Source: Xestospongia bergquistia (Eukaryota; Porifera; Demospongiae; Haplosclerida; Petrosiidae). Taken from it: a stretch of 64,000 nucleotides of DNA. Positions 7,217 through 48,850 of this stretch are shown here, piece by piece. The DNA lies in contig OZ014411.1 in the NCBI GenBank assembly GCA_963965975.1, forward strand, positions 19,558,446-19,622,445, in the 5' to 3' direction. Each line of letters begins with the position of its first letter. The stretch's first letter is position 1. The notes beneath the pieces were generated by a model. That model was given only the letters and a program-made list of their open reading frames with translations. It did no database searches and was not told where the DNA came from. The position numbers and the translations under genes are program-made.

Positions 7217-7391
7217 GCATAATTTTTGTCCCAAAAGTGTATTTTGAAGTCCATTTATATGGGGAAATTGTCGCTGCACGATTTTTTGAGAAGATAATAT
7301 CTGTCAGATGAAGCTAATCACAAAGGTAGTGATGATCAACCATTTTCAAATCCAAGTCTTTTAACACCACTCATCTACACATAAAATATAC

Positions 7392-10800: not shown

Positions 10801-11681
10801 AACAAATGGCCTTATTGCTGGGTGGGAAAGGCACACCCACATCAAAAGAACTGACGATAGTATTTGTACTAACCTTACACACTTGAATATCATATTGTCG
10901 TTCACATTCAAAGTTTCAAACGCCAGCAATAAGAGGAAATGTACTAAAAAATAAACAAATGGCCTTATTGCTGGGTGGAAAAGACACTCTCACATCAAAA
11001 CAACTGATGATAGTATTTGTACTAACCTTACACACTTGAATATCATATTGTCGTTCACATTCAAAGTTTCAAACGCCAGCAATAAGAGGAAATGTACTAA
11101 AAAATAAACAAATGGCCTTATTGCTGGGTGGGAAAGGCACACCCATATCAAAACAACTGACGAAAGTATTTGTACTAACCTGACACACTGGAATATCATA
11201 TTGTCGTTCACATTCAAAGTCTCAAAAGCCAGCAATAAGATGAAATGTACTTAAAAAATGCACAAATGGTCTTATTGCTGGGTGGGAAAGACACACACAT
11301 ATCAAAACAACTGACGATAGTATTTGTACTAACCTTACACACTTGAATATCATATTGTTGTTCACATTCAAAGTTTCAAACGCCAGCAATAAAAAGAAAT
11401 GTACTAAAAAATGAACAAATGGCCTTATTGCTGGGTGGGAAAGGCACACCCACATCAAAACAACTGACAATAGTATTTGTACTAACCTGACACACTGGAA
11501 TATCATATTGTCGTTCACATTCAAAGTTTCAAACGCCAGCAATAAGAGGAAATGTACTAAAAAATAAACAAATGGCCTTATTGCTGGGTGGGAAAGACAC
11601 ATCCATATCAAAACAACTGACGATAGTATTTGTACTAACCTAACACACTGGAATATCATATTGTTGTTCACATTCAAAGTC
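7812..11681. repeat. Satellite array, unit about 151 bp, about 25 copies
   Basis: A tandem array with units of 150–154 bp, each carrying ATTTGTACTAACC, TTGAATATCATATTG and GGCCTTATTGCTGGGT. A higher-order repeat is plain: 8477–8707 recurs at 9234–9464 and 8708–8905 at 9465–9662, both at 757 bp, which is five units. Copies on the right (10.1–11.7 kb) are a different variant class with AAAGTTTCAAACGCC and AATAAACAAATGG. Open frames on both strands are by-products of the periodic sequence. The left edge falls inside an AT-hook exon and the right edge abuts plus-strand coding remnants. Confidence 0.95.
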
Positions 11682-20386: not shown

Positions 20387-23300
20387 TTAGTTAGCAGTTG
20401 CTCCTTCTTTATGAGACACTACAAAAATTGCAAAAATAAAAAATCAAATAATGAAATTAAAACAATAGAATCTTGTTATAAGATGAATTTTAGTGATTAA
20501 AGATATTGTATAGTCATTAAATTACTTCTAACAATCAATCATTTAATATTATGGCCAAAAAAGAGAGTTAGTAAATAATCCCTTTAATATAGACTTAGTA
20601 AATAAAGTCTACATACTTACTATTTGGTTCTGTTATGTGTAAATTAGTCACATCAATTGTAGTCTCTTGAGTTCCTTCCTTTTCTTTAACCTATAAGAAA
20701 TGATTTACATTCTTAACTACTAATATAAGTGATACTAGCTATTTTTACATTTTCACAATATTTTTAATCCAGTATTGCATTAACCATAATAACAAAATAG
20801 TAAAATAAACAATAATGTTGAATAAAATATGTAACAGGATTATCTAGTCTAAGACAATCCTACATAATCACATCTTTACTTTGTGCAAATAAAGAGATGG
20901 GGTTAAAACCACAGGCATGGCAAGGTAAAATTATTTTTTTATAAAGTATATACTGACATGTTAACTATTATTAAAAACTAACCAGATATTTCTTTAAATA
21001 ATCTTCGTATTGATATGCCACATTATTCTGTCTTATAGCTCTTAAAGCAATTAACAAATTCCTCCTAGTTGCATCTTTAGCTTTTTGTTGAATCCATAAT
21101 TGATACATACGTCCTAAGTCATTACATCCAGCTAGATCCACATCATCCAGGTCTAGTTGTACACCCAACCGATGCCACTCAGCAGTTCGAGCAAACTCAT
21201 TTATTTCCTTCAATTTTGGTTGTTGATCTAAAAGCATCTCTAGTGAAGGAGATACACGTTTCTCAACCATTTTATTTGACATTATAATATCAGAGTAACA
21301 ATCTTATAAATATAGACATATATATAATATTCTAAATAACAACATTATCAACGTATGCAGTGACACACAAGTACTGTTAATCATGTTACCAAGCAACTCT
21401 TCATTTGACCAATCAAATTGTACTCCATGGAACATTTCATGTATGGCTTCAGTGTACAAACCACTCATACTATGAATAGATGTAATTTTTACAAATATAC
21501 TTGTTATTATTTATATTTTCTTCGAGTTTATCCTTAGGGAAATATCTACTCATACATTTACAATAAATAGTGGCTATCTACTATGTAATTAAAATAGTTA
21601 ATATTACATATATATGTCAACTATCACATATTGTTGTATGACAAATGAAAATGAATTAAACTACATCCTGTAACTGTTGACTTATATTTTAAAGTGATGC
21701 AATTAATAGTATTTATAAGGAATTATTGGTAACCATAATACTTTTCATTACTGATACTGAATTTAAAAACTTAAATAAACTACAAAACAATCGTTGCAGT
21801 GATATATAGCTGAATTACACTGAGTGTTGAGTGCTAAATAACTTAGGCAATAATATTGTCAACACTTATAAATTTAATGCAAATAAAGATGGTATTAAAA
21901 CCACAGGCATGGCAAATGGCATTAGTTAGCCCTAATGGTGTGAATTTGACTAGTCATGTTTTGCAAATAACACTTCTTTAAGACTTCTAAACATGCACAT
22001 TTAGAGTTTAGGGTTAAGGTTGTCCAGGGTTTAGGGTTTGATACACATCTACTATGTGTAATACACATACTTGGTTATAATTTTAAAATTTGTTAATGAA
22101 TAATGATTATAGATAGTTTGTACAGATGAATAAACAATTGAAATTTAAGGTTTGTAAGGAACAACTATTCTGTAAACTTTGTAGCTCAATACTCAATACT
22201 CAATATCAAAACTCAATAACAATAAAAAGGTGCCTAAATAAGTCTATCAAGTGACTTTAATGGTTATTTGAAGGGAATATAGTAGGAAAGCAATAGTTTT
22301 CAGACCTGTCCCCATATATTAAACTTAATGATAAGACATCATACATAAATTAATATTGAATTTCATTACTTAAGTAAAAAATCTCACCCAACTTATTCTC
22401 TTCTACAGTAGTAGTGTCACTAACAGTTAGTTCTGACTTTTCAGACCCTATGAGATAATGTATAATAAAATAATACAATTTAAGACTAACTTTGGTATGT
22501 TTTGTTAGGGGGTGACTTACTGGCTTGTTCCATGTCACGAAGGATGGGCTGGAGATCAATTTTTCTTGGTTCTTTCCCTGAATAAAGTACATAATATAGT
22601 TAACATGATATCTGAATAATGAATAGGGAAGTGAAAATTATAGTTCTCTTTTAAGTATAATGTAAATTAATAGGATATTCATAAAATTAGTCCTAATAAT
22701 GATCATGAAGATTGTGGACACAAAAACTCTTGCATATAAAGAGAGCACTTAGCAGTTTATCATAGAGCTATGACATCATTCCACTACATTAAATAAACCT
22801 TCTATAAATGAGACAAAATATACAAATATATTTCAATGTTTGACAGTTTACCAATAGCTATCTGTTGTTTATAATAAACATGTCAAACATAATTAAGGTC
22901 TCACCTAATATACCTCCTACTGTTAAAGTAGGACATGATAAACCAGCAGTGTCAGGTGTAATTCCTTTATAAATAAAATATATTAGTAATATAATTTATT
23001 GATAATGATTATTTTATTACTTAAAGAAACAGGATCAGTTGAGCTAGCAGTTTTTCCTGTGTTATCAGATTCTATATTAATAATATGTAAAACAATCAAT
23101 AAACAAATTAGACAAACCTTGGTGTACTTTCTGAAGAAGTGGTTTTGAGGTTTGTTCTATGACATTCTCAGTTAATGATGAGGAGGCAAGATCCTGTACA
23201 TTATATAAAAGGAGATTAATATAATATCTTTAAAACTAAATGACTTATACATTGTTACAGGTACACTAAAAGTAATAGTAGCTCACTTACCAAAGGATTG

Positions 23301-26300
23301 CGTCCAGCAAATATGCTGAACTGACTACAGTGGTCCCTTACAGATGTATACATACGTTCAACAGAAGATAAAAAAGATACACCACACATTTCTTCAATGT
23401 GTTGTAGATAATCTTGTTGGACTGGTAACTCAGCATTACTTGGGTCGAATAGTGCTTTGGTCACTAAAGGAGCAATTCGAAAAAATGGATCTTTACTCCC
23501 TACTATATCTTCAATGTGAACGTTGTTAATGTCAACTTTAGTAAGAATACCCACAGCAACATCTTCCATGGAATAAAGTGTGCGTTGACATACATCAAGA
23601 GTATGAGCATTAGCTACTTCATTAGGTGCAATCATGTACTCATCACTTGTACATGAACATAGTTGGTTCTTAAGGCTGAGAATGGTATTAATAACTGAGT
23701 TAAAAACTTTGTGACATTCAGTCTTCTCTTTATTCGAAGCAAGTACTGTAACACATCGATTGTGCTCAGATACTTCAACAAAAAGCTTAAAGTTAACTTC
23801 TTTCTCCCAATATATACCGTTAGTCCATACATTACAACGACGAGCTAACATTTCAACAATTGGATTAGCTTTGTAAAGTTTACCTGGTGTTCTTCGAGGT
23901 GGGAGGGGGAGACAATAGATATATGCAAGGCTAAGAAGAAGTACATGAAGAAATCGAGTTGACAGGAAGTCATTAGGATCAGGACACCATAGACACCATC
24001 CTAACCCATTCTCTATCTTGATATCGGTGGGTGGTTCAGCATCAATGAGTGCTGGGAAAAATAAGAGCTCATCAAATGGCATAGGTATTGATGTTGATAT
24101 GTTAGTTTCAAGGCAATCAAGTGCACTTGATTCAATAATGTGACAGAATTGTAGACTTCTAAGAAATCCTACTAACATATCAATATCATAATGAGGAAAA
24201 GCTTCCTTAAGAACTGATAGAGGTACAATGCCAGTATTACTAGCAATATCACGATAAACACGCTGGATTGCCTGTGGGGCAAATAGGACACCGTTTACTT
24301 CTTTGAGAAGAGCTGTTTTGTCAATTACTACCCAACTTTTACTTTCCTTATTTCTGAGGAATAATATAAGACCCTTGTCACTTAAAGTGGTCAGAAATTC
24401 TAATAACACTGACATTTCTGATGGAAGAGAAGGGTCATTATGCTCTTTTAATAATGCACATAGCTCTTCTAAACTAATAGCCACTTTTTTAAGAAGCTGT
24501 AGGAAGGAGTACTGGACGTGGCAATAAAAGCTGATTTTGTTGGATCGATCAAGGACAGCTTTACAGCTCTCAGAAAGCACAGAAATAAACTCTTTTACTC
24601 CTTTACCTCCTGGACGATGACATTCCATAGGTAGAAATCCACGGTATTCTTGTGAATGTATAGCCTTCTTAGTAATTCCATCAACCAATCTCTGGATTGG
24701 GTCAATACTAGTAGTCAGCTCATCCAGTCGACTACCAACAACGATGATTTGTGATTTCATTGAGCTCTTCATTCCTTTACTAATGTTCTCAATAAACTTA
24801 AACCAGTAATGAAGATTGTTTATCAGAATCTCCTCGTTTAAGATCAGCTGGAAAAGAACCAAAAATACAGCAGGTGAGCTCAACATGAGGTTTTCAAGGA
24901 CAGCAGAATGACTACTATAATATTCCTTATGACCAGCGAGATCATAGAGGACGACATTTCCTACTTCATGGCTTGTGAAGGTATGTGCATCAATACCAGC
25001 TGTTAGTGGTTCTACTGTGACACATTCGGATGTATCAAAATTGTGATTGGCTGGTTTGTTAGCTCGTTCCATAATAACTGCAGCAAGAGAACTTTTTCCA
25101 ACAGAAATGTCGCCACAGACAAATACCTTGCTGTAGGATTCCACAGGGAAGTCAGCTTGACACTGTTGAAATGGCGCAAACATTTTTAAAATCTCAAAAC
25201 GATTGGTATTGTAGTGAGGAACAAGTTCCATTGGTGCTTGTCCATATTTGTTCTTTGACATTGGATCAACTTTTCCAGAAGATAAGAGAAATTTGATGAC
25301 ACCAGTGGAGGCTTGGGAGCAAGCATTGTGTAGTGGTGTATTACCACTCTAAGTAAGATAGAACAGTAATAAAGGTCTACAGTATTTACATTATAGTGTA
25401 GTAAATAACTTAATAATAGACTGTTGTGATAAATAAACGGCTAAATTTTGTTAAGGAGATAGGAATAAGAGACTTTTGAAAGTGATATGCCAGATCACAT
25501 GTCATGAATTCATCATTCTACTTTTAATGCCTCCTATTCAGTTGATAAGTATACACAAAAATATACATTTAAATAGAAGATCATCTACAAATCAATAAAC
25601 CAGTAAATTCTATTGTCTATGTTAAAATTTATTATATATTAGAAAATGAATATCAATATCTCTAAAACCATGTTTACACACATGCAGCATAATTAGTTAA
25701 TGTAAATCGTATTTTCCAAACAAGCAAAAAGTTAAATTTATACAGAATTAATCATCACAGGATAAATGAGCTCCCAGTGTTTCATGTATGAACACATGTA
25801 TATAGTGAGACATAATTTAATATTATAATTATGATCTATTACAGCTCTTTTATTTATAAATGTATTCCATAACAAATTTAGAGAGAATCAAAACATTCCA
25901 ATTCAATTAACATAAACCTGAAAAATAAATAATCAAATGTTTAAAACCTTCAGGACACATTAGCTAGATGTATGTTTATAATGGAATAGTCTTTATTAAG
26001 TTATACATAATTGAGTTGGCCATGTGGGTGCTTTTTAAATATATAGTCTTAAAGATTGCAAAGTGTATTTAAAACTTGTGCCATCACCACAGTTACTAAT
26101 TCAAATATCTCCTTAGCATTTTGAACTATTGTTTCAAATTTGGAAATTTTTAAACTGGTCATGCTCATTTTAATCCATTATCTTCTAATGAGAAAGACCC
26201 AGTTTGAAACTAGACCTTAACATACACAGTAGATAGAACTCAATCACATATAAATAAATACTTTAATTCACAGAGAAAACAATCTATTTGCATAATATAA

Positions 26301-29300
26301 CAGACAATAACGTTTAAGAGTTTATAATATAAACCTAATTTATAACATTCTCAATTATGTACAAATAGCAGTTGTCAATATATAACTTATATTTATACTC
26401 ACCCTGTTCTTCACATCAATGTGAACAGTACAATTAAAAATAGTAGCAACAATATCAACATTGTTATGAAGAGCAGCAAAATGCAAAGCTGTGTCGTTGT
26501 TCTGAGAACACAAAGACAATATGACAAGTAAAATGTGCAAATTACCTTTAATGTAGCAACAACGTAACTGGATTATTTATTTATATAATGACATTGAATA
26601 TCAGTGTACTTAAAAGATGAAGTACATAGTACATGTATCAACCTTGTAATATTTATAATGTTGAATGTGACAAATGCATATGTATACCAATTTTAGCATT
26701 TTTATTAATATTATATCTACACTAAGCCCTATCCTAATAGTTGTTAGTAATTCTAATATAGCAATTTGTATGTGTAGCATGTAGGTACTCAAGTTATTAA
26801 TTTTAAACATTAACAAAACTTTTACGCTTTATTCCAAAGAGTTGCTGTACAAACTTTATTACTGTATATACAACACCACACTTACATAACATTTAGTCAC
26901 ACTGAATGCAAGTTTAGAAAACTGTGCCAATGTAAAACATAGCATCACTCAATGGCCAGAATTTCCTTAAAATAGAACAACTTATACTTAATCTCAAATT
27001 TCCTGTTGAAGTTGTTCTTTTTATCTCATGTTGACTAATTACTTGTAATTTACATGTCATCAAGTTGTAGTAAGTGAAGCTCTTTTAATAGTTCATTACA
27101 GAAGGTAAAATGTCACAAACTACTTTGTGAAGTAGTGCTACAACTTACATTATCTACAAAGTCAACAGAACAGCCACTCTTAATCAGAAAAAGTGCAATA
27201 TCTGTATGGTTATTGCTAACAGCAATCGTGAGTGCTGTCTCCCCTTCCTATAATATAATATGTAATGAAAATAAAAAGATAAATACATAAATGATACTAC
27301 TTTTGTAATTTTTTGGTTTTGTTAATTATGAAAAAGATCTCAATATCAACAAGAATGTTTAGTTTACATACAACATAGATTTAGAATATATTTTATTACA
27401 AATGACTTATTATAACCTTAATTAGTATTTTATAACCTATGGTATAAGCAGTTTAAAAATAGGTGTGGTTGCAAAAAAAGCTACACTGTAATATAATCTA
27501 CAAGTACAGATAGTCACACTCAATATTGTAGCATATTAAAACTCATTGCTTACAATGAATGTTAGTAGTCAAAGCATGCAGATCAATTTTTTGGGTAAGT
27601 CTCATGAAACAATACAATAAAACAATGAAAACAAATATACTCATACAGAAAACATGTAGTCCAAAAAATCTTAGTTATCACATGTATCTTGCCAACATTA
27701 CCAACTCAATCTCAAACCAATGCTGATATATACATGAATACATAGTAAATTTGGTTGTTGTTAGTTTAGTATGTAATAATAAATTATAGTTTATTTACTT
27801 CGATCACATACTTTGAATTTTACATGATAATATAAATTGGTTGGCACAAATGTCATAATAATAACTTCATAATAATATGACATGGACTTTGCTTTAATAC
27901 AAATGTTTTCAATATGAAATTTTTAGCATGGAAATTAAAGATAACAGAACCATTATTTTAATAGTATTAAAAATAAAAACTATCATTTAAACTTGCAAGG
28001 ACATAATGAGCCATAAAATCAAACTCAATATTTCGTAAAAAGCATAAAATTTTCACCAAATGATATAGACTGTGATTTAAAATACAATTTCTGTCAAAGA
28101 GCACGCTAGTTTTCATGTTAATATTACCATCAAGTTCTTCGGACTACTACCTGATTGAGAATGTAGTATAAAAATAATATACACATTTGTTAATGTCAGG
28201 TAAAACATCTTTTATCATTACAATGCTAATGCTTATTAAACAGTGATCTACCAGTCATAGCTTCTGATTACCAAAAAAACTGATTTTTATTATTATTTAA
28301 ATTACCTTGGTAGTGACAGTGTTGATATCAACACCATTATCAACTAATGCTTTAACAATGGCTGTGTGGCAGTAAAAATACTGCATTGAACAATGTGGTG
28401 GCTACTAGGAGGCAGATATAAGTAATCTTTACCTGGACATGCTTATTTTCCAGTATTATAATAGAGATACTAAATGTAACATGGCATTATAGAAGCTAAG
28501 GCTTACTCCACAATGGCCTGCATTTAGCCTAATAATATGTATGTTACTTTCAATACAGCCAGACATTCAGGTGGATATCAGTGGGTTGTCATGATATTCT
28601 TAAACAACAGGTGAACAAGGTCATATTCATGTACACATTATTTTGCATCTTTTCTTGTCTACTAATCAATCTTATGATCAAAACCTTCTTAATTGAGAAC
28701 TACTTCATAATATTATATTATTAGTTCAGTACATGATGTAAATAAACCTTATGACACTATGAAATGGACTACATCTAGATTCTGACATTCGCAATACTTA
28801 ATGTTTTAAAAATTACTTCTGCCTTCAATACTATGTCAAGTAATCTTGATATCATTTAAGAAATGAGTAGTAATACAATATTTACAGTAACAAACAAATA
28901 CATACTTACTTTGTCAACAAGATTTAGATTGGCTCCTCTCTCTATTAACATCAAAACGATGTCTTTATGTCCCCTCATTATTGCTATCATGACAGGACTA
29001 GATCCTTCCTAAGAATTATCATAATAAACAAGATAATATATAACAATCAGTATAAATAGATATCATAACAGTTGTATATTATCTATATTACATACACAAA
29101 CTGCTCTACATGTATTATATTGTAATCATCATATAGCTAAAATAAAGTACTAACAAAATATGTGTAACTGATGTAAATAAAGTAAAGATACACAATGTTC
29201 AAATATAATGTACACATCTAATAACAAGAAGATAATCAATAACTTGACTTTAGAGATAAAACATCATCACAATAGCAATGACTTTGTTATATCTTCTCTA

Positions 29301-32300
29301 ATAGTTAACTACCAGTCTTTCATTAAAAATTGCACTAAATTAGATAATACTTACCGGCTATTAAGTTATCAAGGTCATGGTAAAAGATAATCACAGTATC
29401 ATAAAATAGAAGGAAAAACAATACAGTAAACAAAGTAATTAAAATAATAACAATTAAACTGCATATACATACAAATTATACAACAGTAAACAAAGTAATA
29501 ACAAGATTATAATTCAATAATCATCCTATAATTTTATTTAGGAAGATAAAGACTTTACAGTCAAAAACTGACTACAAAAGTACAGGTTTGATAGACACAT
29601 CGACAACTAGCATACCAATGGATATGGAAGACTATAGACGAAGAAGCAAGATAGTAACAAACTTCAGACAATTGAAATATTATTAATCATGCATATATAA
29701 TCACTGTTAGTGGTATGTAATTCATTGGATGCTGCATATCTCATCAATTACTGTATGTAGTTTAATTTATACATAGTTTAAAACACCATATACAACAAAA
29801 AAATAAAACAAAGCAATTTACATCGCAGTATATATACATTACAAATTGTACTACATTATATCATACTTACCACCTATTATATTATAAGGATATATTCAGA
29901 TAACATTTAATACCCACCATCATAAAAGTACAGACAAAAATAATACAGTAAACAATGTAATAAATATTGAATTGCGTAGAATTACAAATTATACTACACT
30001 ATATCAGACTTACTTCCTATTATATTATAAAGGAATAATTCAGATAACATTCAATACCCACCATAATAAAAGTACAGACAAAAGCAATACAGTAAACAGA
30101 GTAACAAATATTGAATTGCATACAATTACAAATTGTACTACATTATATCATACTTACTTCCTATTATATTATAAAGGACATATTCAGATAATATACAATA
30201 CCACAATCATAAAAGTACAGACAAAAATAATACAGTAAACAAAGTAACAAATATTGAATTGCATACAATTACAAATTGTACTAGATTATATCATACTTAC
30301 TTTCTATTATATTATGAAGGACACAATCAGATAACATACAATCCCACCATCATAAAAGTACAGACAAAACAATACAGTAAACAAAGTAATAAATATTGAA
30401 TTGCGTACAATTACAGATTATACTACATTATATCATACTTACCCTCTATTATATTACGAAGGATATATTCAGATAACAGCATCATAAAAGTAGAAACAAA
30501 GACAATACAGTAAACAAAGTTATAAATATTGAATTGTTTACAATTAAAAATCGTACTTTAGTAGTGACAGTGTTGATGTCAGCACCATTATCAACTAATG
30601 CTTCAATATTAGCTGTGTGGCCTTCATTTAATGCAAAATGAAGAGCCATCCACCCATCCTATTATAACAGAAAAAACAAACAAACGATTTGATCAATGGA
30701 CATCAATATTGCTATAATTATATGTAGCTTTGAAGTTTAAAGTACAAACACAACATTAAATAATGTAAACTCATTTAGTTGGTAGCTACTAGGAGGCAGA
30801 TATAAGCACTCTTTACAAGGATATTGTCCTAAACAAGACTTTCATTGTTGAAAAATATCAAACAAAAAATTAAAGTTTAAGGAACTGATGTTTCATAACA
30901 TAGGCTTTATTACTAGATATGTGCATACAGTTGAACCAATTGTTAATAATAGATTTAGATGCCAAATGGAGATATTATCTGACACAAATGTTATAACAAA
31001 GTTATCACAAATACATAACATCACTTTGTTTAATTCTAATATGTAATGATGATATTCTTTGTTTTGGTATACTCCTATATTTAGACTTAGTCCTACATGA
31101 TTGTATTTATGTTGTTAACTGACATCCATACATGTTTATTTTCCAGTATTATAATAGAGATACTAAATGAAACATGGCATTATAGAAGCTAAGGCTTACT
31201 CCACAATGGCCTGCATTTAGCCTAATAATATGTATGCTACTTTCAATACAGCCAGACATTCAGGTGGATATCAGTGGGTTGTCATGATATTCTTAAACAA
31301 CAGGTGAACAAGGTCATATTCATGTACACATTATTTTGCATCTTTTCTTGTCTACTAATCAATCTTATGAACAAAACCTTCTTAATTGAGAACTACTTCA
31401 TAATATTATAATATTAGTTCAGTACATGATGTAAAAAAACCTTATGACACTATGAAATGGACTACATCTAGATTCTGACATTCGCTATACTTAATGTTTT
31501 AAAAATTACTTCTGCCTTCAATACTATGTCAAGTAATCTTGATAACATTTAAGAAATGAGTAGTAATACAATATTTACAGTAACAAACAAATAGATACTT
31601 ACTTTGTCAACAAGATTTAGATTAGCTCCTCTCTCTATTAACATCAAAACGATGTCTTTATGTCCCCTCATTATTGCTATCATAACAGGACTAGATCCTT
31701 CCTAATAATTATCATAATAAACATGATAATATATAACAATCAGTATAGATAGATATCATAACAGTTGTATATTATCTACATTTACAGTAACAAAAAAATA
31801 CATACTTACTATGTTAACAAGATTTAGATTGGCTCCTCTCTCTATTAACATCAAAACGATGTCTTTATGTCCCCTCATTGCTGCTATCATGACAGGACTA
31901 GATCCTTCCTAAGAATTATCATAATAAACATGATAATATATAACAATCAGTATAGATAGGTATCATAACAGTTGTATATTATCTATATTACATACACATA
32001 CTGGTGTACATGTATTATATTGTAATCATCATATAGCTAAAATAAAGTACTAACAAAATATGTGTAACTGATGTAAATAAAGTAAAGATACACAATGTTC
32101 AAATATAATGTACACATCTAATAACAAGAAGATAATCAATAACTTGACTTTAGAGATAAAACATCACAATAGCAATGACTTTGTTATATCTTCTCTAATA
32201 GTTAACTACCAGTCTTTCATTAAAAATTGTACTAAATTAGATAATACTTACCGGCTATTAAGTTATCAAGGTCATGGTAAAAGATAATCACAGTATCATA

Positions 32301-35300
32301 AAATAGAAGGAAAAACAATACAGTAAACAAAGTAATTAAAATAATAACATCAAATTGTATACACATACAAATTTTACAACAGTAAACAAAGTAATAACAA
32401 GATTATAATTCAATAATCATCCTATAATTTTATTTAGGAAGATAAAGACTTTACAGTCAAAAACTGACTACAAAAATACAGACTTGATAGAGATATGAAT
32501 AATTAGCATAGCAATGGTATCAAAGACTATATAGGCTGAGAAGCAAGATAGTAACAAACTTCAAACTATTGAAATATCATTAATTGTACACACTATCACT
32601 GTTAGTGGTATGTAATTTATTAAATGGTGCATATCTCATCAATTACTGTATGTAGTTTAATTCATACATAGTTTAAAACACCATATACAAAAACAAAATA
32701 AAACAAAGCAATTTACATCGCAGTATATATACATTACAAATTGTACTACATTATATCATACTTACCAGCTATTATATTATAAAGGATATATTCAGATAAC
32801 ATTTAATACCCACCATCATAAAAGTACAGACAAAAATAATACAGTAACCAAAGTAATAAATATTGAATTGCGTAGAATTACAAATTATACTACACTATAT
32901 CAGACTTACTTCCTATTATATTATAAAGGAATAATTCAGATAACATTCAATACCCACCATAATAAAAGTACAGACAAAAGCAATACAGTAAACAGAGTAA
33001 CAAATATTGAATTGCATACAATTACAAATTGTACTACATTATATCATACTTACATCCTATTATGTTATAAAGGACATATTCAGATAACATACAATCCCCA
33101 CCATCATAAAATACAGACAAAAACAACACAGTAAACAAAGTAATAATTATTAAATTATATTATATTAAGCTACAATTGTAACTTTAACAACTTTTGTAAC
33201 ACGCTATTCAATGAGACAATTTGTTAATTTATTTACTAGGAAGTAATTATATCATACTTACTTTCTATTATTTTATGAAGGACACAATCAGATAACATAC
33301 AATCCCACCATCATAAAAGTACAGACAAAACAATACATTAAACAAAGTAATAAATATTGAATTGCGTACAATTACAAATTGTATTATATAATATCATACT
33401 TACCCTCTATTATATTATGAAGGATATATTCAGATAACAGCATCATAAAAGTAGAAACAAAGACAATACAGTAAACAAAGTTATAAATATGAATTGTTTA
33501 CAATTAAAAATCGTACTTTAGTAGTGACAGTGTTGATGTCAGCACCATTATCAACTAATGCTTCAACAATAGCTGTGTGGCCTTTATTTAATGCAAAATG
33601 AAGAGCCGTCCACCCATCCTATTATAACAGAAAAAACAAACAAACAATTTGATCAATGGACATCAATATTGCTATAATTATATGTAGTTTTGAAGTTTAA
33701 AGTACAAACACAACATTAAATAATGTAAACTCATTTAGTTGGTGGCTACTAGGAGGCAGATATAAGCACTCTTTACAAGGATATTGTCCTAAACAAGACT
33801 TTCATTGTTGAAAAATATCAAACAAAAAATTAAAGTTTAAGGAACTGATGTTTCATAACATAGGCTTTATTACTAGATATGTGTGTACACTTTAACCAAT
33901 TATTAATGATAGATGTAGATGTCAAATGAAGATATTATCTGACACAAATGTTATAACAAAGTTATCACAAATACACAACATCACTTTGTTTAATTCTAAT
34001 ATGTTAATGATGATACTCTTTGTTTTGGTATACTCCTATATTTAGACTTAGTCCTACATGATTGTATTTATGTTGTTAACTGACATCCATACATGTTTAT
34101 TTTCCAGTATTATAATAGAGATACTAAATGAAACATTGCATTATAGAAGCTAAGGCTTACTCCACAATGGCCTGCATTTAGCTTAATAATATGTATGTTA
34201 CTTTCAATACAGCCAGACATTCAGGTGGATATCAGTGGGTTGTCATGATATTCTTAAACAACAGGTGAACAAGGTCATATTCATGTACACATTATTTTGC
34301 ATCTTTTCTTGTCTACTAATCAATCTTATGATCAAAGTCTTAATTGAGAACTACTTCATAATATTATAACATTAGTTCAGTACATGATGTAACAAAACCT
34401 TATGACACTATGAAATGGACTACATCTAGATTCTGACATTCGCTATATTTAATGTTTTAAAAATTACTTCTGCCTTCAATACTATGTCAAGTAATCTTGA
34501 TAACATTTAAGAAATGAGTAGTAATACAATATTTACAATAACAAACAAATAGATACTTACTTTGTCAACAAGATTTAGATTGGCTCCTCTCTCTATTAAC
34601 ATCAAAACGATGTCTTTATGTCCCCTCATTATTGCTATCATGACAGGACTAGATCCTTCCTAATAATTATCATAATAAACATGATAATATATAACAATCA
34701 CTATAGATAGGTATCATAACAGTTGTATATTATCTACATTTACAGTAACAAACAAATACATACTTACTTTGTCAACAAGATTTAGATTGGCTTCTCTCTC
34801 TATTAGCATCAAAACAATGTCTTTGTGTCCCCTCATTGTTGCTATCATGACAGGACTAGATCCTTCCTAAGAATTATCATAATAAACATGATAATATATA
34901 ACAATCAATATAGATAGATATCATAACAGTTGTATATTATCTATATTACATACACATACTGCTGTACATGTATTATATTGGAATCATTATATAGCTAAAA
35001 TAAAGTACTAACAAAATATGTGTAACTGATGTAAATAAAGTAAAGATACACAATGTTCAAATATAATGTACACATCTAATAACAAGAAGATAATCAATAA
35101 CTTGACTTTAGAGATAAAACATCACAATAGCAATGACTTTGTTATATCTTCTCTAATAGTTAACTACCAGTCTTTCATTAAAAATTGCACTAAATTAGAT
35201 AATACTTACCCTCTATTAAGTTATCAAGGTCATGGTAAAAGATAATCACAGTGTCATAAAATAGAAGGAAAAACAATACAGTAAACAAAGTAATTAAAAT

Positions 35301-38300
35301 AATAACAATTAAACTGCATATACATACAAATTATACAACAGTAAACAAAGTAATAACAAGATTATAATTCAATAATCATCCTATAATTTTATTTAGGAAG
35401 ATAAAGACTTTACAGTCAAAAACTGACTACAAAAGTACAGGTTTGATAGACACATCGACAACTAGCATACCAATGGATATGGAAGACTATAGACGAAGAA
35501 GCAAGATAGTAACAAACTTCAGACAATTGAAATATCATTAATCATACATATATAATCACTGTTAGTGGTATGTAATTCATTGGATGCTGCATATCTCATC
35601 AATTACTGTATGTAGTTTAATTTATACATAGTTAAAAACACCATATACAACAACAAAATAAAACAAAGCAATTTACATCGCAGTATATATACATTACAAA
35701 TTGTACTACATTATATCATACTTACCACCTATTATATTATAAGGATATATTCAGATAACATTTAATACCCACCATCATAAAAGTACAGACAAAAACAATG
35801 CAGTAAACAAAGTAATAAATATTAAGTTACATACAATTATAAATTGTACTACATTATATCATACTTACCCCCTATTATATTTTAAAGGACATATTCAGAT
35901 AACATACAATCACACCATCATAAAAGTAAAGACAAAAACAATGCAATACACAAAGTAATAAATATTAAGTTGCATACAATTACAAATTGTACTACATTAT
36001 ATCATGCTTACCCTCTATTATATTATAAAGGACATATTCAGATAACATACAACCACACCATCATAAAAGTAAAGACAAAAACAATGCAATACACAAAGTA
36101 ATAAATATTAAGTTGCATACAATTACAAATTGTACTACATTATATCATACTTACCAGCTATTATATTATAAAGGACATATTCAGATAACATACAACCACA
36201 CCATCATAGAAGTAAAGACAAAAACAATGCAATACACAAAGTAATAAATATTAAGTTGCATACAATTACAAATTGTACTACATTATATCATACTTACCAG
36301 CTATTATATTATAAAGGACATATTCAGATAACATACAACCACACCATCATAAAAGTAAAGACAAAAACAATGCAATACACAAAGTAATAAATATTAAGTT
36401 GCATACAATTACAAATTGTACTACATTATATCATACTTACCCTCTATTATATTATAAAGGACATATTCAGATAACATACAACCACACCATCATAGAAGTA
36501 AAGACAAAAACAATGTAATACACAAAGTAATAAATATTAAGTTGCATACAATTACAAATTGTACTACATTATATCATACTTACCCTCTATTATATTATAA
36601 AGGACATATTCAGATAACATACAACCACACCATCATAGAAGTAAAGACAAAAACAATGCAATACACAAAATAATAAATATTAAGTTGCATACAATTACAA
36701 ATTGTACAACATTATATCAAACTTACCCACTATAATATTATAAAGGACATATTCAGATAACATACAATACCCACCATCATAAAAGTATAGACAAAAACAA
36801 TACAGTAAACAGAGTAACAAATATTGAATTGCATACAATTACAAATTGTACTACATTATATCATACTTACTTCCTATTATATTATAAAGGATATATTCAG
36901 ATAACATACAATACCCACCATCATAAAAGTATAAACAAAAACAATACAGTAAACAGAGTAACAATATTGAATTGCATACAGTTACAAATTGTACTACATT
37001 ATATCATACTTACCAGCTATTATATTATAAAGGACAAATTCAGATAACATACAATCACACCATCATAAAAGTAAAGACAAAAACAATGCAATACACAAAG
37101 TAATAAATATTAAATTACAAACAATTACAAATTGTACTACATTATATAATACTTACCCACTATTATATTATAAAGGACATATTCAGATAACATACAATCA
37201 CACCATCATAAAAGTATAGACAAAAAGCAATGCAATACACAAAGTAATAAATATTAAGTTGCATACAATTACAAATTGTACAACATTATATCATACTTAC
37301 CCTCTATAATATTATAAAGGACATATTCAGATAACATACAATACCCACCATCATAAAAGTATAGACAAAAACAATACAGTAAACAGAGTAACAAATATTG
37401 AATTGCATACAATTACAAATTGTACTACATTATATCATACTTACTTCCTATTATATTATAAAGGACATATTCAGATAACATACAATCCCCACCATCATAA
37501 AAGTATAAACAAAAACAATACAGTAAACAGAGTAACAATATTGAATTGCATACAGTTACAAATTGTACTACATTATATCATACTTACCAGCTATTATATT
37601 ATAAAGGACAAATTCAGATAACATACAATCACACCATCATAAAAGTAAAGACAAAAACAATGCAATACACAAAGTAATAAATATTGAATTACAAACAATT
37701 ACAAATTGTACTACATTATATAATACTTACCCACTATTATATTATAAAGGACATATTCAGATAACATACAATCACACCATCATAAAAGTATAAACAAAAA
37801 CAATACAGTAAACAAAGTAAATATATATTGAATTACATACAATTACAAATTGTACTACATTATATCATACTTACCAGCTATTATATTACGAAGGACACAT
37901 TCAGATAACATACAATCCCCACCATCATAAAAGTATAGACAAAAAGCAATGCAATACACAAAGTAAATAAATATTGAATTACATACAATTACAAATTGTA
38001 CTACATTATATCATACTTACTTCCTATTATATTATAAAGGACATATTCAGATAACATACAATCCCCACCATCATAAAAGTATAGACAAAAACAATACAGT
38101 AAACAGAGTAACAATATTGAATTGCATACAGTTACAAATTGTACTACATTATATCATACTTACCCTCTATTATATTATAAAGGACAAATTCAGATAACAT
38201 ACAATCACACCATCATAAAAGTAAAGACAAAAACAATGCAATACACAAAGTAATAAATATTGAATTACATACAATTACAAATTGTACTACATTATATAAT

Positions 38301-41300
38301 ACTTACCAGCTATTATATTATAAAGGACATATTCAGATAACATACAATCACACCATCATAAAAGTATAAACAAAAACAATACAGTAAACAAAGTAAATAT
38401 ATATTGAATTACATACAATTACAAATTGTACTACATTATATCATACTTACTAGCTATTATATTACGAAGGACACATTCAGATAACATACAATCCCCACCA
38501 TCATAAAAGTATAGACAAAAACAATGCAATAAACAAAGTAATAAATATTGAATTACATACAATTACAAATTGTACTACATTATATCATACTTACCAACTA
38601 TTATATTATAAAGGACATATTCAGATAACATACAATCACACCATCATAAAAGTATAGACAAAAACAACACAGTAAACAGAGTAACAATATTGAATTGCAT
38701 ACAGTTACAAATTGTACTACATTATATCATACTTACCCACTATTATATTATAAAGGACAAATTCAGATAACATACAATCCCCACCATCATAAAAGTATAG
38801 ACAAAAACAATGCAATACACAAAGTAATAAATATTGAATTACATACAATTACAAATTGTACTACATTATATCATACTTACCCTCTATTATATTATAAAGG
38901 ACATATTCAGATAACATACAATCCCCACCATCATAAAAGTATAAACAAAAAAAATACAATACACAAAGTAAATAAATATTGAATTACATACAATTACAAA
39001 TTGTACTACATTATATCATACTTACTTCCTATTATATTATAAAGGACATATTCAGATAACATACAATACCCACCATCATAAAAGTATAAACAAAAAAAAT
39101 ACAATACACAAAGTAAATAAATATTGAATTACATACAATTACAAATTGTACTACATTATATCATACTTACTTCCTATTATATTATAAAGGACATATTCAG
39201 ATAACATACAATCCCCACCATCATAAAAGTATAGACAAAAACAATACAGTAAACAGAGTAACAATATTGAATTGCATACAGTTACAAATTGTACTACATT
39301 ATATCATACTTACCAGCTATTATATTATAAAGGACAAATTCAGATAACATACAATCACACCATCATAAAAGTAAAGACAAAAACAATGCAATACACAAAG
39401 TAATAAATATTGAATTACATACAATTACAAATTGTACTACATTATATCATACTTACCCACTATTATATTATAAAGGACAAATTCAGATAACATACAATCC
39501 TCACCATCATAAAAGTATAGACAAAAACAATGCAATACACAAAGTAATAAATATTGAATTACATACAATTACAAATTGTACTACATTATATCATACTTAC
39601 CCTCTATTATATTATAAAGGACATATTCAGATAACATACAATCCCCACCATCATAAAAGTACAGACAAAAACAACACAGTAAACAAAGTAATAAATATTG
39701 AATTGCATACAATTACAAATTGTACTACATTATATCATACTTACTTCCTATTATATTATAAAGGACATATTCAGATAACATACAATACCCACCATCATAA
39801 AAGTATAAACAAAAAAAATACAATACACAAAGTAAATAAATATTGAATTACATACAATTACAAATTGTACTACATTATATCATACTTACTTCCTATTATA
39901 TTATAAAGGACATATTCAGATAACATACGATCACACCATCATAAAAGTATAGACAAAAACAATACAGTAAACAGAGTAACAATATTGAATTGCATACAGT
40001 TACAAATTGTACTACATTATATCATACTTACTTCCTATTATATTATAAAGGACATATTCAGATAACATACAATCCCCACCATCATAAAAGTATAAACAAA
40101 AACACACAGTAAACAGAGTAAATAAACGTTGAATTACATACAATTACAAATTGTACAACATTATATCATACTTACCCTCTATTATATTATAAAGGACATG
40201 TTTAGATAACATACAATCCCCACCATCATAAAAGTAGAGATAAAAACAACACAGTAAACAAAGTAATAAATATTGAATTGCATACAATTATAAATTGTAC
40301 TACATTATATCATACTTACTTCCTATTATATTATAAAGGACATATTCAGATAACATACAATCCCCACCATCATAAAAGTATAAACAAAAACACACAGTAA
40401 ACAGAGTAAATAAACGTTGAATTGCATACAATTACAAATTGTACTACATTATATCATACTTACTTCCTATTATATTATAAAGGACATATTCAGATAACAT
40501 ATAATCCCCACCATCATAAAAGTATAAACAAAAACACACAGTAAACAGAGTAAATAAACGTTGAATTACATACAATTACAAATTGTACTACATTATATCA
40601 TACTTACCACCTATTATATTATAAAGGACATGTTCAGATAACATACAATCCCCACCATCATAAAAGTAGAGATAAAAACAATACAGTAAACAAAGTAATA
40701 ATTATTAAATTGCATTATATTAAGCTACAATTGTAAATTTAACAACTTTTGTTAGATACTATTCAATGAAACAATCATTTAATTTAATATGTACTACCTA
40801 CATTTTGAATTGTTCATAACATGTACATTTTATAAAATTACATACTATCACTGTACATTAATGGAGCTTATGACATATAACAAAATTACTTTTTAAAATG
40901 ATTAAAAAAACAGTAAATTAGTAAATCTTTTCTCAAATATCAATTGACATTTATCTTAAAGATACATTTATGTTATTCTTACTATGCTAGTGTACATGTT
41001 AATACTAATATCAACTTCTTTGGACTACTACCTAATTGAGAATTTTGTACAATTATAATACATAAAAACTTGTTAATGTCAGGTAAAACATCTTTTATCA
41101 TTATAATACTAATGATTATTAAACAATGATCTCCCAGTCATAGCTTTCACATTGACAAAAAACACTCATTTTTATTATTATTTAAATTACCTTAGTAGTG
41201 ACAGTGTTGATATCAGCACCATTATCAACTAATGCTTCAACAATGGCTGTGTGGCCTTCACTTGATGCATAATGAAGAGCTGTCCACCCATCCTATTATA

Positions 41301-44300
41301 ACAGAAAAAACAAACAAACAATCTGATCAATGGACATCAATATTGCTATAATTATATGTAGCTTTGAAGTTTAAAGTACAAATACAACATTAAACAATGT
41401 AAACTCATTTAGTTGGTGGCTACTAGGAGGCAGATATAAGCACTCTTTACAAGGATATTGTCCTAAACAGGACTTTCATTGTTCATGATGATATTCTTTG
41501 TTTTTTGCATACTCCTATATTTAGACTTAGTCCTACATGGTAGTATTTATGTTGTTAACTGACAACTGCATTATATGTTTATTTTCCAGTATTATAATAG
41601 AGATACTAAATGAAACATGGCATTATAGAAGCTAAGGATTACTCCACAATGGCAAGCATTTAGCCTAATAATATATATGTTACTTTCAATACAGCCAGAC
41701 ATTCAGGTGGATATTGGTGGGTTGTCCTGTTATTCTTAAACAACAGATGAACAAGGACATATTCATGTACACATTATTTTGCATCTTTTCTTGTCTACTA
41801 ATCAATCTTATGATCAAAGTCTTAATTGAGAACTACTTCATAATATTATAATATTAGTTCAGTACATGATGTAACAAAACCTTATGACACTATGAAATGG
41901 ACTACATTTAGATTCTGACATTCGCTATATTTAATGTTTTAAAAATTACTTCTGCCTTCAATACTACGTCAAGTAATCTTGATAACATTTAAGAAATGAG
42001 TAGTAATACAATATTTACAGTAACAAACAGATACTTACTTTGTCAATAAGATTTAGATTGGCTCCTCTCTCTATTAACATCAAAACAATGTCTTTGTGTC
42101 CCCTCATTGTTGCTATCATGAGAGGACTAGATCCTTCCTAATAATTATCATAATAAACATGATAATATATAACAATCAGTATAGATAGGTATCATAACAG
42201 TTGTATATTATCTATATTACATACACATACTGCTGTACATGTATTATATTGGAATCATCATATAGCTAAAACAAAGTTATAAATATTGAATTACATACAA
42301 TTACAAATTGTACTACATTATATCGTACTTACCAACTATTATATTATAAAGGACATATTCAGATAACATAAAATAGCACCATCATAAAAGTAGAAACAAA
42401 AACAATACAGTAAACAAAGAAATGAATATTGAATTGTTTATAATTACAAATTGTACTACATTATATCATACTTACCAACTATTATATTATAAAAGACATA
42501 TTCAGATAACATAAAATATCACCATCATAAAAGTACAGACAAAAACAATACAGTAAACAAAGTAATAAATATTGAATTGTTTACAATTAAAAATTGTACT
42601 ACATTATATCGTACTTACGTCCTATTATATTATGAAGGACACATTTAGATAACAAACAATTTCCACCATCATAAATGTAGAGACAAATACAACACAGTAA
42701 ACAGTAATAATTATTAAATTCCATTATATCAAATCTATTTCATTACATGTTATCAAATGATGAGAGACTTGATTTACATTATTTATTTAACTACTTATTT
42801 GTCATCATTGAGTCTTTTCAAGACTAGTAAGTCTTAAAACTTAAGAATGTTTTTATCAATTGGAGAACCAGAACTAGTTAAATAGCTATATGCTTCTACT
42901 TTTCTTGCTTTCATTCTCTACTAGCACAATATTGATTATAATTCTCATAATAGTTATAAAAAGCATTTTAAGACTATTTGGGAACAGGCTATACAAATAT
43001 TCCATAACTTAAAACTTTGTAGTAGTATTTTCTAGTAAAGTGAGCTCCGTCAATTGACATTATTTATGATAATTATTATATTTCAATATTCTTTAACAAG
43101 TATTACTACCAATATTATATCTTAATATGTATATTACCACATGGTGAATATTAATAGCTATTTAAACACTGTGGGTGTTTGTAGATATTTGTTGCTTAGT
43201 ATAGCTTCTATTTACTTGTGGAAAAAGATATAAAAACAATTTAAACAACGAAAATGGATGTAATGATGACAATGTCACAAAGCACTGAAACAAGGTTGTC
43301 ATATTACTTTGTATACACAAAGCCTTACAAAATCTATATATAACTATCATATTATTACTTTACGCTAATTTTGTAGGGGTTTTGTTAAAAAACTACAAAG
43401 TGAACAACAAAAATTTTTTATATCTGTTTATTCAAATTACCTTAGTAGTAACAACATTGATATCAGCACCATTATTAACTAATGCTTCAACAATGTTTGT
43501 GTGTCCTTGATGAACTGCATGATGAAGGGCCACCCATCCATCCTATTGTAATAACAACAATAATAAACAAACTATCAACAATATAATTACATTACTAACA
43601 GTCTATCCTAATTAGACAAATGAATTAAGATACTACAAATGGTTCCAGTGTTATACAAGTACATGTATACTTTGATAATAAAGTACAAGTGAATAAAATA
43701 CTCTCAAAAAATTCATGTAATGTAAGGATAGTAGTAAAATATATCTCAAAAGGACCAGAGTATAAATAGAAGTCTCAATATCTTTAATTAATACATGTAA
43801 AATGTCAACTCAAAATTTATTTCTAAAGGCTGCAAAACTTGGTCCTCAACATTGACTGTTTTTAATAGTCAGTATTGCTCTATCTTTTAATTCAACTGAA
43901 ATAGCTTCATGTACACTGCCCATTAGAGAGCATTCTACTTGAAACAAAGGTTATATTTGCTCTATACTATAGTATTATTGTTACAATCCTCATTGATAGA
44001 TTGTAAACATATATCTAAAAATATCCTAAATTTTTATTGAACTCAATACTCTTTTCCAATTATTATGATACAGCCAGACTGTAATACCTCCTATAACTAA
44101 AAAAGCAGTATAATCTTCATTTTGTGCCTGCAATATAGCATGTTCAGACTGTCATCCTACTTTATTAAAGATGATTTTGTTCCCATCCTTATATTTTAAG
44201 ACTTCTTTCTAAAATTTTAATTTATTTTTGTTTGTGCTTTTTAAGAAAATTTAAATAACTTACATCATCTGTAGCATATACATTTGCACCTTTTGAGATG

Positions 44301-47199: not shown

Positions 47200-48850
47200 T
47201 TCTACAAGATTGTCGACCTATATGTAATCATTGTGGAGGCAACCATGTTTGCCACCACTTGCAGTTTTCTTAAAAGTGAATACAGAGCCTGTGGGAAATT
47301 GGACTCATAGCAAAAGTGTCATAGTAAACTGATAGCCACAAGTCAGACCCCTCTGCCAACCTCAGATCCTTCTCAACTGTCTGATGGTGTAGGATGATGC
47401 CTACATCCTGTTTACCTTGCCTGGGAAAGTCAAAACCTATTGTATGACAAGTAAATGGGTTACTAAAGAACTAGAGATAAGGCGTCTTTGTCAATTGTAA
47501 GTGAACAAACTTATGATTCTATTTCTCATCCCACATTTCAAATGCAACCTATCGATATTACTCTCAGTACCTATACTGGAGAAAATCTCATGATTCTTGG
47601 CATTTGTGATGTACACGTAGATTACCAATCACAGTCTCAGATTCCCCCACTTCTAGTCATGCATGGACACCACTATACAGCTTCTACATGTTATCATTGT
47701 TGAGGCAACCATGTACTTGCAGTTTTCTTAAAAGTGATTACAGAGCATGTGGGAAATCGGACTCATACAAAAGTGTCATAGTAAACTGATAGCCACAAGT
47801 CAGACCCCTCAGTGGACCTCAGATCTCTCTTACCTGTCTGATGGGCCTGATGATGCCTACACCCCAGTTTACCTTGCCTGGGAAAGTCAAACCTATTGTA
47901 TGACATTCCAAGTAAATGGGTTCCTATAGAACTAGACATAGGGCGTCTTTGTCAATTGTAAGTGAACAAACTTATGATTCTATTTCTCATCCCACATCTT
48001 AAATGCAACCTATCAATATTGCTCTCAGTACCTATAAACTGGAGAAAACCTCATGATCCTTGGCATTTGTGATGTACATGTAGATTACCAATCACAGTCT
48101 CAGATTCTCCCATTTCTAGTCATGCATGGACACAGACTATACAGCTTCTACATGTTATCATTGTTGAGGCAACCATGTACTTGCAGTTTTCTTAAAAGTG
48201 AATACAGAGCCTTTGGGAAATCGGACTCATACAAAAGTGTCATAGTAAACTGATAGCCACAAGTCAGACCCCTCAGCGGACCTCAGATCTCTCTCACCTG
48301 TCTGATGGGCCGGATGATGCCTACACCCCAGTTTACCTTGCCTGGGAAAGTCAAACCTATTGTATGACATTCTAAGTAAATGGGTTCCTATAGAACTAGA
48401 CATAGGGCGTCTTTGTCAATTGTAAGTGAACAAACTTATGATTCTATTTCTCATCCCACATCTCAAATGCAACCTATCGATATTGCTCTCAGTACCTATA
48501 TACTGGAGAAAACCTCATGATCCTTGGCATTTGTGATGTACATGTAGATTACCAATCACAGTCTCAGATTCTCCCACTTCTAGTCATGCATGGACACAGA
48601 CTATACAGCTTCTACATGTTATCATTGTTAAGGCAACCATGTACTTGCAGTTTTCTTAAAGGTGAATACAGAGCCTTTGGGAAATTGGACTCATACAAAA
48701 GTGTCATAGTAAACTGATAGCCACAAGTCAGACCCCTCAGCCAACCTCAGATCTCTCTCACCTGTCTGATGGGTCAGATGTTGCCTACCCCTTGCCTGAA
48801 ACCTATTGTATGACACAGTCTAAGTAAATGGGTGTTAGATCTTCCAATGG
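47200..48850 (+). repeat. Tandem multiplication of the zinc-knuckle and protease segment
   Basis: The word GCAGTTTTCTTAAA recurs at 47261, 47719, 48183 and 48647 (spacing 458, 464, 464). Each unit carries a zinc-knuckle-like CYHC / GGNH piece followed by a retroviral-type aspartic-protease tail (SIVSEQTYDS, TYTGENLMILG, PLLVMHGH). So the gag–pol junction of the element has been multiplied in tandem, with a partial further copy to about 49010. Frames are broken by single-base changes and stops. Unequal crossing-over or replication slippage after insertion is the simplest cause. Confidence 0.85.

Follow-up and report, generated by a model that had tools for sequence, protein, structure and literature searches.

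Tandem Arrays of Candidate Single-Codon Exons at One Ankyrin Boundary of a Putative Ank-Roc-Death Receptor Family in the Sponge Xestospongia bergquistia

Can part of a receptor gene be written one codon per exon? This question is raised by a 64,000-nucleotide stretch of the Xestospongia bergquistia genome (contig OZ014411.1, positions 19,558,446 to 19,622,445; called the window here), in which the motif TAATAG, three bases and GTAAGT recurs within a putative receptor gene. A first-pass annotation had counted 51 such sites, all on the gene's strand, and had proposed them as 3-nt exons. The strict scan for TAATAG-NNN-GTAAGT gives 48 sites on the minus and 0 on the plus strand of the window; the relaxed core scan, which allows up to 9 substitutions among 33 fixed bases, finds exactly 51 on the minus and again 0 on the plus strand. 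The 3 additional sites are one-base variants (TTATAG twice, GTAAGC once). The triplets counted by hand were reproduced without any change: GAA 13, AGG 11, CTG 8, TGG 5, GTG 3, TTG 3, CCG 2, AAA 2, and GGG, CTA, GAT and GAC once each. Likewise, the proposed 143-bp tandem unit is returned by Tandem Repeats Finder with a period of 143-144 and 35.0 copies at 35689-40715, 3.2 at 42269-42720, 3.0 at 32729-33156 and 5.1 at 29834-30557.

All features lie on the minus strand, and the sites are spread over four introns (3 + 36 + 6 + 6), each with a DGW-type ankyrin exon on one side and an EGS-type on the other; these ankyrin exons are phase-0, in agreement with the earlier placement in phase-0 introns between ankyrin exons. 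DGW-type exon 1 (43441..43542; DGWVALHH...VTTK; phase 0) precedes microexon array 1 (42333..42621), which holds GAC, TTG and TTG with first bases at 42621, 42478 and 42335, and EGS-type exon 1 (42039..42137; EGSSPLMIATMRG...LIDK). Between DGW-type exon 2 (41191..41292; DGWTALHYASSEG...VTTK; Pfam Ank 4.4e-11) and EGS-type exon 2 (34768..34866; Pfam Ank 1.7e-6) we find array 2, with 35 three-nt exons in the 143-nt tandem unit (35726..40610; serial reading VEEREEERWLEERWLLLRELWLERWLEWRRLLRGV) and a solitary terminal AGG (35210..35212), which is more diverged and has its splice motifs intact. EGS-type exon 3 (34561..34659) and DGW-type exon 3 (33517..33618) are followed by array 3 (32252..33406; AGG, AAA, GAT, GAA, CTG and a solitary terminal CCG, first base 32254) and by EGS-type exons 4 (31810..31908) and 5 (31603..31701). 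DGW-type exon 4 (30557..30658), array 4 (29355..30445; AGG, AAA, GAA, GAA, GTG and a solitary terminal CCG, first base 29357) and EGS-type exon 6 (28910..29008) come next. Further downstream lie a large exon with the last ankyrin repeat, the Roc GTPase and a downstream region (23260..25348; Pfam Roc 3.2e-7) and a Death-domain exon (20974..21303; Pfam Death 2.7e-5). Roc, the best Ank match and Death each exceed their Pfam cut-off and together give the domain set of a ROCO receptor; the Ank, Roc and Death exons are presumably joined as one transcript. By eye, the sequence after the donor in locus L010 and in DGW-type exons 3 and 4 of the window resembles the unit interior, which suggests a possible origin of the unit in that part of the DGW exon's donor side.

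Across the 146-Mb genome we count 2279 exact AATATAATAG-NNN-GTAAGT sites. Other gaps between the two motifs are rare: gaps of 0-2 together give 9 sites (4 in the reversed-pattern control) and gaps of 4-14 together 12 (control 9), the totals covering the whole genome and the places the first 100 sites listed. In the window and 23 fetched loci a spacing of 3 occurs at 605 sites and each other spacing from 0 to 30 at 0-2, so the pairing of the motifs is not chance. Loci L001-L008, which overlap with other loci, were left out of this 605-site count of spacing, stops and third bases, and L032-L038 stand outside the spacing, unit-family, anchored-flank, entropy, intron-type, paralogue-pair and once-per-locus stop counts. 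The position is also restricted. In the loci examined, microexons were found in 24/24 DGW-EGS introns, 0/28 EGS-DGW and 0/7 EGS-EGS introns, and hence in 0/35 of the ankyrin introns other than DGW-EGS; the 24/24 is partly ascertained, because the loci were fetched for holding arrays, the 0/35 less so. This count dropped exons near locus ends, overlapping duplicates and exons matched at less than 50% identity or with an E-value over 1e-6, and it required GTAAGT, so that the largest intron of the window contributes 35 of its 36 microexons. The loci L021, L022, L029, L032 and L033 showed no flanking ankyrin exon; in L036 an EGS-like exon was read by eye and gave no tblastn match, being cut by the locus end. 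That the EGS-EGS and EGS-DGW introns of array-bearing genes themselves are free of microexons adds to the first-pass annotation.

The annotation had also noted that no triplet is a stop codon. Over 13 loci, none of the 605 triplets is a stop, where 2000 column shuffles lead one to expect 42.8 and never give fewer than 29; this raw count overstates independence, since duplication relates the copies. When every kind is scored once per locus, stops are 0 of 133 against 7.8 (p = 5e-5); p is 0.015 when kinds are scored once per unit family and 0.21 when they are scored once overall. All 15 sense NNG codons are present in the 13 loci, while TAG is absent. Genome-wide, there are 0 TAG triplets beside 357 NAG sites and 2 TAA or TGA triplets among 259 NRA sites; the TAA belongs to an array with decayed neighbouring splice sites and the TGA to an isolated unit. 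Barring these two among 2279, the triplets have the properties of coding microexons (length divisible by three, reading phase preserved, free of stops) and appear to behave like translated codons. The third base in the loci examined is G in 74%, A in 20%, T in 6% and C in 0.3%, which bears out the reported preference for a final G and is splice-like, as expected for the base before a donor. A synonymous/non-synonymous count of the triplets was pseudo-replicated and remained unused.

How variable the three bases are can be seen when the outer flanks are fixed and the inner part is left unconstrained. This anchoring gives 745 matches, of which 629 have 16 inner bases. In these, the splice columns carry 0.05-0.26 bits, as anticipated from the near-constant flanks seen at first, and the triplet columns 1.97, 1.97 and 1.05 bits; AG or GT is missing at its expected place in only 19 of the 629. 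The other 116 matches differ in inner length and, among those listed, are mostly off target, some being units shortened upstream. Two entries scored as TAA in this test are stretches without splice motifs. Additionally, the units fall into five families with diverged middles, and GTAAGTRTKATATAATGTA and AATATAATAG are kept in all of them. The triplet word entropy exceeds that of every 3-nt intron window in 11 of 13 loci, and in the remaining 2 one or two intron windows equal the triplet in diversity; the family and entropy analyses used only units with neighbouring sites 120-160 nt apart. The triplets are poorly linked to their flanks. In a 6.9-kb C7 paralogue pair the change is 25% per triplet site versus 1.9% elsewhere, but such aligned rates were set aside and we rely on within-locus entropy, because the triplet order shows register shifts, together with unit gain and loss, which make aligned-pair rates unreliable. 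The proposal of 3-nt exons, still a reading of genomic DNA, has thereby gained several lines of evidence, namely spacing, stops, third base, kept splice blocks and junction.

We consider it very probable that each TAATAG-NNN-GTAAGT is a genuine one-codon exon, which would be added in frame by stepwise splicing at the DGW/EGS ankyrin boundary. Each 143-nt tandem unit would then consist of one codon and an entire GT-AG intron of about 140 nt, regarded as U2-type, with GTAAGTAT or GTAAGTGT as a strong donor and AATATAATAG as the acceptor. In a ratchet-like step, the DGW exon would join a triplet, the next strong donor would stand three bases on, and the step would repeat, leaving one or many in-frame codons between the DGW-type and EGS-type repeats. 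The boundary between ankyrin repeats is the beta-hairpin 'finger' of the stack, a usual ligand-contact surface. The Ank-Roc-Death receptor family would in this way vary its binding tip residue by residue. The anatomy, the length of 3 nt, the stop avoidance, the hypervariable triplets and, for the loci examined, the position can be read from the sequence itself; from these we infer the inclusion in mRNA, a serial rather than a single choice, and a function in recognition. Against this counts that arrays of 1-36 units per DGW-EGS junction would produce very different insert lengths if all units were included.

A spliced product of the array gene was not recognised among the best 120 each of 995, 5074 and 797 protein matches. 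At 70% identity or more, the matches listed in the 995- and 797-match searches are 609-725 aa long, as large as the Roc exon by itself. The matches listed in the 797-match search also include longer Ank-Roc proteins at 36-45% identity; two of these (P0241 and P0244) have a long uninterrupted ankyrin stack and may stem either from a single open frame or from a spliced model. The ankyrin query (5074 matches) gave ankyrin proteins at 25-42% identity among the matches listed. Pattern scans of viral and prokaryote contigs gave 0 matches, which has little weight as near records may be absent. Within the window, Rfam reports no family at gathering score. A conserved RNA structure of the introns found no support: for the consensus introns of the five families, folding was no better than after shuffling (z 0.35 to 0.83), with a home-made shuffle whose exact dinucleotide preservation is unchecked.

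Could every microexon always be used, so that an array would encode one fixed peptide and no isoforms? This constitutive inclusion is a sub-case of the stepwise explanation, so that the two likelihoods overlap, and we regard it as quite possible without expecting it. Near-identical splice motifs would favour neighbour-to-neighbour splicing of 140-nt introns, and the last triplets recur in many A-cluster arrays; however, steric competition would be expected between splice sites 3 nt apart, and with it some skipping. A different role would be that of mere splicing helpers, in which the sites are ratchet points that shorten the removal of long introns, the triplets being normally skipped or leaking in now and then and stops being avoided lest leakage truncate the protein. 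An acceptor beside a strong donor does recall recursive-splicing sites, as far as the available parts of the sources describe them (PMC8605326, PMC6224609). Ratchet points are there juxtaposed sites with nothing between (PMC8605326), whereas here gaps of 0-2 are near background, gap 3 dominates, and a gap of 0, the zero-nt exon of a recursive splice site, occurs at 0 sites in the loci. Moreover, the intron length is largely due to the arrays themselves, a DGW-EGS intron with a single microexon having 811 nt, and the hypervariable triplets are not predicted by a helper role, which we find improbable.

The conserved unit ends reach well past ordinary splice motifs and, together with the poor linkage of triplets to flanks, would suit a mobile intron-like element (introner) or a recombination site, whose three bases would be left over from a target site or a crossover and would not be codons. 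Such an origin is very doubtful in view of the stop avoidance, the G-biased third base, the restriction to one exon junction in the loci examined and unit ends that, judged by eye from the consensus, are unlike inverted repeats. Introners insert with target-site duplication at dispersed places in unrelated genes; here one junction type was seen, with gene context read for part of the 2279 sites. Satellite DNA with chance splice-like motifs would fit the tandem 143-nt layout and the differing copy number, but motifs kept over five diverged unit families, the near-exclusive spacing, the stop avoidance and the position make it the least credible reading of all.

Several known systems come close to one-codon exons spliced stepwise. 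The exons of schistosome MEGs measure 6-36 nt, and Dscam has mutually exclusive exons that code for portions of Ig domains. MEG coding regions are described as mostly very small symmetrical exons, alternative splicing of which can give similar proteins a few residues apart (PMC4350168); the sponge arrays resemble them in these small symmetrical exons and the possible few-residue variants. Unlike in MEGs, the sponge exons have 3 nt, sit in near-identical tandem intron units and belong to a Roc-Death receptor gene, inside its ankyrin stack; the recognised coding region of this gene is made up mainly of ankyrin exons, each about 100 nt, and the 2.1-kb Roc exon. Exons of 3 nt in mouse Ncam and fly TnT (PMC8042270) and a single-nucleotide exon in Arabidopsis (PMC4674806) are reported to be spliced; in the accessible portions of these reports they are individual exons, with no array or hypervariable codon. 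In recursive splicing, joining at the acceptor recreates a donor where the two ends meet, and a part-spliced reporter whose donor had been shifted to 6 nt downstream from the junction yielded a 6-nt microexon, in a study that also describes EJC-controlled microexons (PMC6224609). A ratchet point leaves nothing behind, while the sponge model would keep one codon per step. Tandem alternative exons diversify a receptor surface in Dscam (see also PMC6851185), similar in being tandem exons of a receptor gene, yet the sponge exons are one codon each. Brown-alga LRR-ROCO genes, also ROCO genes, have one repeat per exon, and exon shuffling with alternative splicing is proposed to diversify these immune receptors (PMC11378527); the variation lies in LRR repeat exons, and the abstract of that paper does not mention microexons. 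In the literature that we found, no array of single-codon exons is described.

We tentatively put forward a broader reading, which may well prove too bold: hundreds, perhaps more than 2000, single-codon exons of one receptor family could form a peptide library made by splicing. Ratchet splicing in series, with some units skipped, would place different codon subsets at ankyrin fingertips, and a single gene could thus supply many different binding loops, giving a somatic recognition repertoire by RNA splicing alone, in which selection keeps the codons diverse while the introns are homogenised. Exons under 8 nt are reported to be poorly studied since segments of such length are difficult to map (PMC8042270), and should the codons be included, coding sequence of this kind may also escape standard gene predictors and the mapping of short reads. 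The arrays make it testable how a spliceosome copes with dozens of 3-nt exons in a row, whether these are gated by the exon junction complex, and whether splicing can give an animal its recognition repertoire. With the codons included, part of a receptor would be written one amino acid per exon, dozens consecutively, which would push the limit of short-intron splicing and open a new route to receptor diversity.

A strict scan of the window for TAATAG-NNN-GTAAGT, in which a triplet (the candidate 3-nt exon) stands between an acceptor and a donor, gave 48 sites on the minus strand, where the gene lies, and none on the plus strand. A relaxed scan returned exactly the 51 sites that the first-pass annotation had reported on the gene's strand, with the same triplet tally as its hand count. 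Most of them lie in a tandem unit with a period of 143–144 nt (143 bp had been given), and the phase 0 claimed for the introns agrees with flanking exons that begin and end at codon boundaries. Four introns of one gene hold 3, 36, 6, and 6 of these sites. The gene had been described as encoding an ankyrin-Roc-Death receptor: ankyrin repeats (in the tested exons of the two ankyrin kinds, DGW and EGS), the Roc domain, and the Death domain each score above the Pfam cut-off, while the joining of all exons into a single transcript is deduced only from strand, order, and phase. We confirm the original observation and can extend it considerably.

The genome was scanned over 146.46 Mb in 21 contigs. 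The unit is repeated at many places on C1, C2, and C7, with more sites on C4 and C6, and AATATAATAG-NNN-GTAAGT has 2279 exact matches, compared to none for the reversed-pattern control. Gaps of 0–2 in place of 3 gave 9 matches versus 4 in the control, and gaps of 4–14, eleven spacings pooled, gave 12 versus 9. In the window and the 23 array-bearing loci fetched elsewhere in the genome (L009–L031), a gap of 3 occurs at 605 sites and every other gap between 0 and 30 at two at most.

We then surveyed the introns of these same loci with window peptides as probes. All 24 DGW-to-EGS introns contain microexon sites, 1 to 35 each by the criterion of the survey script, a proportion that is partly ascertained because the loci were fetched for having arrays; none were found in the 28 EGS-DGW and 7 EGS-EGS introns. 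The rule holds also in paralogues whose ankyrin exons are just ~55–70% identical to the probes. The splice ends of the host exons are ordinary: AG precedes all 37 DGW and all 42 EGS exons, GT follows 42/42 EGS exons; of the DGW exons, 24/37 have it right where the probe ends, and 12 of the remaining 13 show GTA one codon earlier. Most donors of DGW exons read GTAATT or GTACGA, which are weaker than the GTAAGT of the microexons. The intron just past some of them (GTACGA...) resembles the unit interior (window 33517 and 30557; L010 ~6659, minus strand), and there are hints that the array unit arose from the DGW donor region. Aligned to ankyrin-1 and ankyrin-1/2, the DGW-EGS junction is the passage between successive repeats, with a one-residue gap nearby because the DGW exon has 34 codons. 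We take this repeat boundary to be the β-hairpin fingertip.

Among the 605 sites we found 32 kinds of triplets and not a single stop codon, whereas permuting the three triplet columns within 13 locus groups (2000 times) gave a mean of 42.8 stops and a minimum of 29. Counting each kind once per locus group (598 full-flank sites) leaves 0/133 stops versus 7.8 expected (p = 5e-5), once per unit family, i.e., per group of units with diverged intron middles, 0/72 versus 3.4 (p = 0.015), and once overall 0/32 versus 1.3 (p = 0.21). All 15 sense NNG codons are seen in the 13 locus groups; TAG is the missing one. It is absent genome-wide as well, against 357 NAG matches, where ~116 would be expected if T were as common in the first position as in the 605 sites (24.5%), an arithmetic that ignores relatedness. 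TAA and TGA together appear twice among 259 NRA sites genome-wide. The sole TAA is in a decaying array (L037, C6:4724201-4725100) whose neighbouring units have mutated donors or splice motifs, and the sole TGA is in an isolated unit (L036, C1:9611801-9612900), 2.2 kb from the next exact site. The latter unit lies ~600 bases upstream of an EGS-like exon, read by eye, at the locus end. The third base of the 605 triplets is G in 74%, A in 20%, T in 6%, and C in 0.3%, as a donor site would prefer, and the first two are roughly even. The coding reading, in which the triplets would act as codons, is strongly supported.

To avoid circularity, we fixed only the conserved flanks further out and left the inner bases free. 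This gave 745 matches, 629 of them with 16 inner bases. In these 629 stretches the splice-site columns carry 0.05–0.26 bits, in line with the near-constant flanks annotated before, and the triplet columns 1.97, 1.97, and 1.05 bits. AG or GT is missing at the expected position in 19/629; some other anchored stretches have lost 1–2 bases upstream with the 3-nt exon still intact. Triplet diversity exceeds that of every 3-nt intron window in 11 of 13 locus groups; of the other two, the group with 17 units has one intron window that matches it and the group with 8 units has two. Where flanks are <1% apart, the triplet differs in 43% of 332 unit pairs, a figure made unreliable by register shifts and by gain and loss of units. 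The consensus introns of five unit families have diverged in the middle and kept the GTAAGTRTKATATAATGTA start, the AATATAATAG end, and the length of ~140 nt. A sixth family (L038, C1:9617001-9620700) has a ~136-nt unit whose triplets, mostly or only TTT, GAA, and CGA, are not bridged by intermediate codons; the flanks of these units are very similar. Many A-cluster arrays of the window and L009–L020 end alike, with recurrent triplets in the final one or two positions (GTG, then CTG or CCG); their inner triplets lack this recurrence.

The window holds further repeats. Tandem units at 6078-6402 (plus strand, period 122), 7382-7812 (minus, period 122), and 63572-63994 (minus, period 109–231) resemble a repeated ~80-nt exon ending G|GTAAGT; this candidate exon would encode AEPLELSDIEPVLTVPPARGRPKKKT variants, with GRPKK as an AT-hook-like motif. 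A 153-bp unit is present in 25 copies at 7811-11681, with minus-strand frames open across several units, and a 464-bp unit in 3.3 tandem copies at 47257-48788 (94% matches).

Published work describes three-nt microexons (PMC8042270), an exon of a single nucleotide (PMC4674806), the small symmetric exons of schistosome MEGs (PMC4350168), recursive splicing that yields a microexon (PMC6224609), and brown-algal ROCO genes with one repeat per exon and alternative splicing (PMC11378527). Among the matches listed, the titles and abstract openings of a literature in which subscription papers mostly fall out of scope mention no arrays of 3-nt exons. Because the parts are known singly and the whole assembly was not met there, we rate the arrangement, known here from DNA alone, as new as far as these searches go.

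The sequence shows the anatomy, 3-nt length, stop avoidance, and diversity, and for the examined loci also the position. The most likely mechanism is stepwise single-codon splicing, in which each unit would supply one codon plus a complete short intron. For introns of this length (140 nt), splice-site pairing by the spliceosome would occur by intron definition. Ligation of the upstream exon to a triplet would place a strong donor three bases downstream, so that splicing could walk along the array, one codon per step. Steps could be skipped with the frame kept, and the inserted codons would lie at the ankyrin fingertip. We infer microexon inclusion, its stepwise order, and a role in recognition. 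Splicing of these arrays may create receptor diversity.
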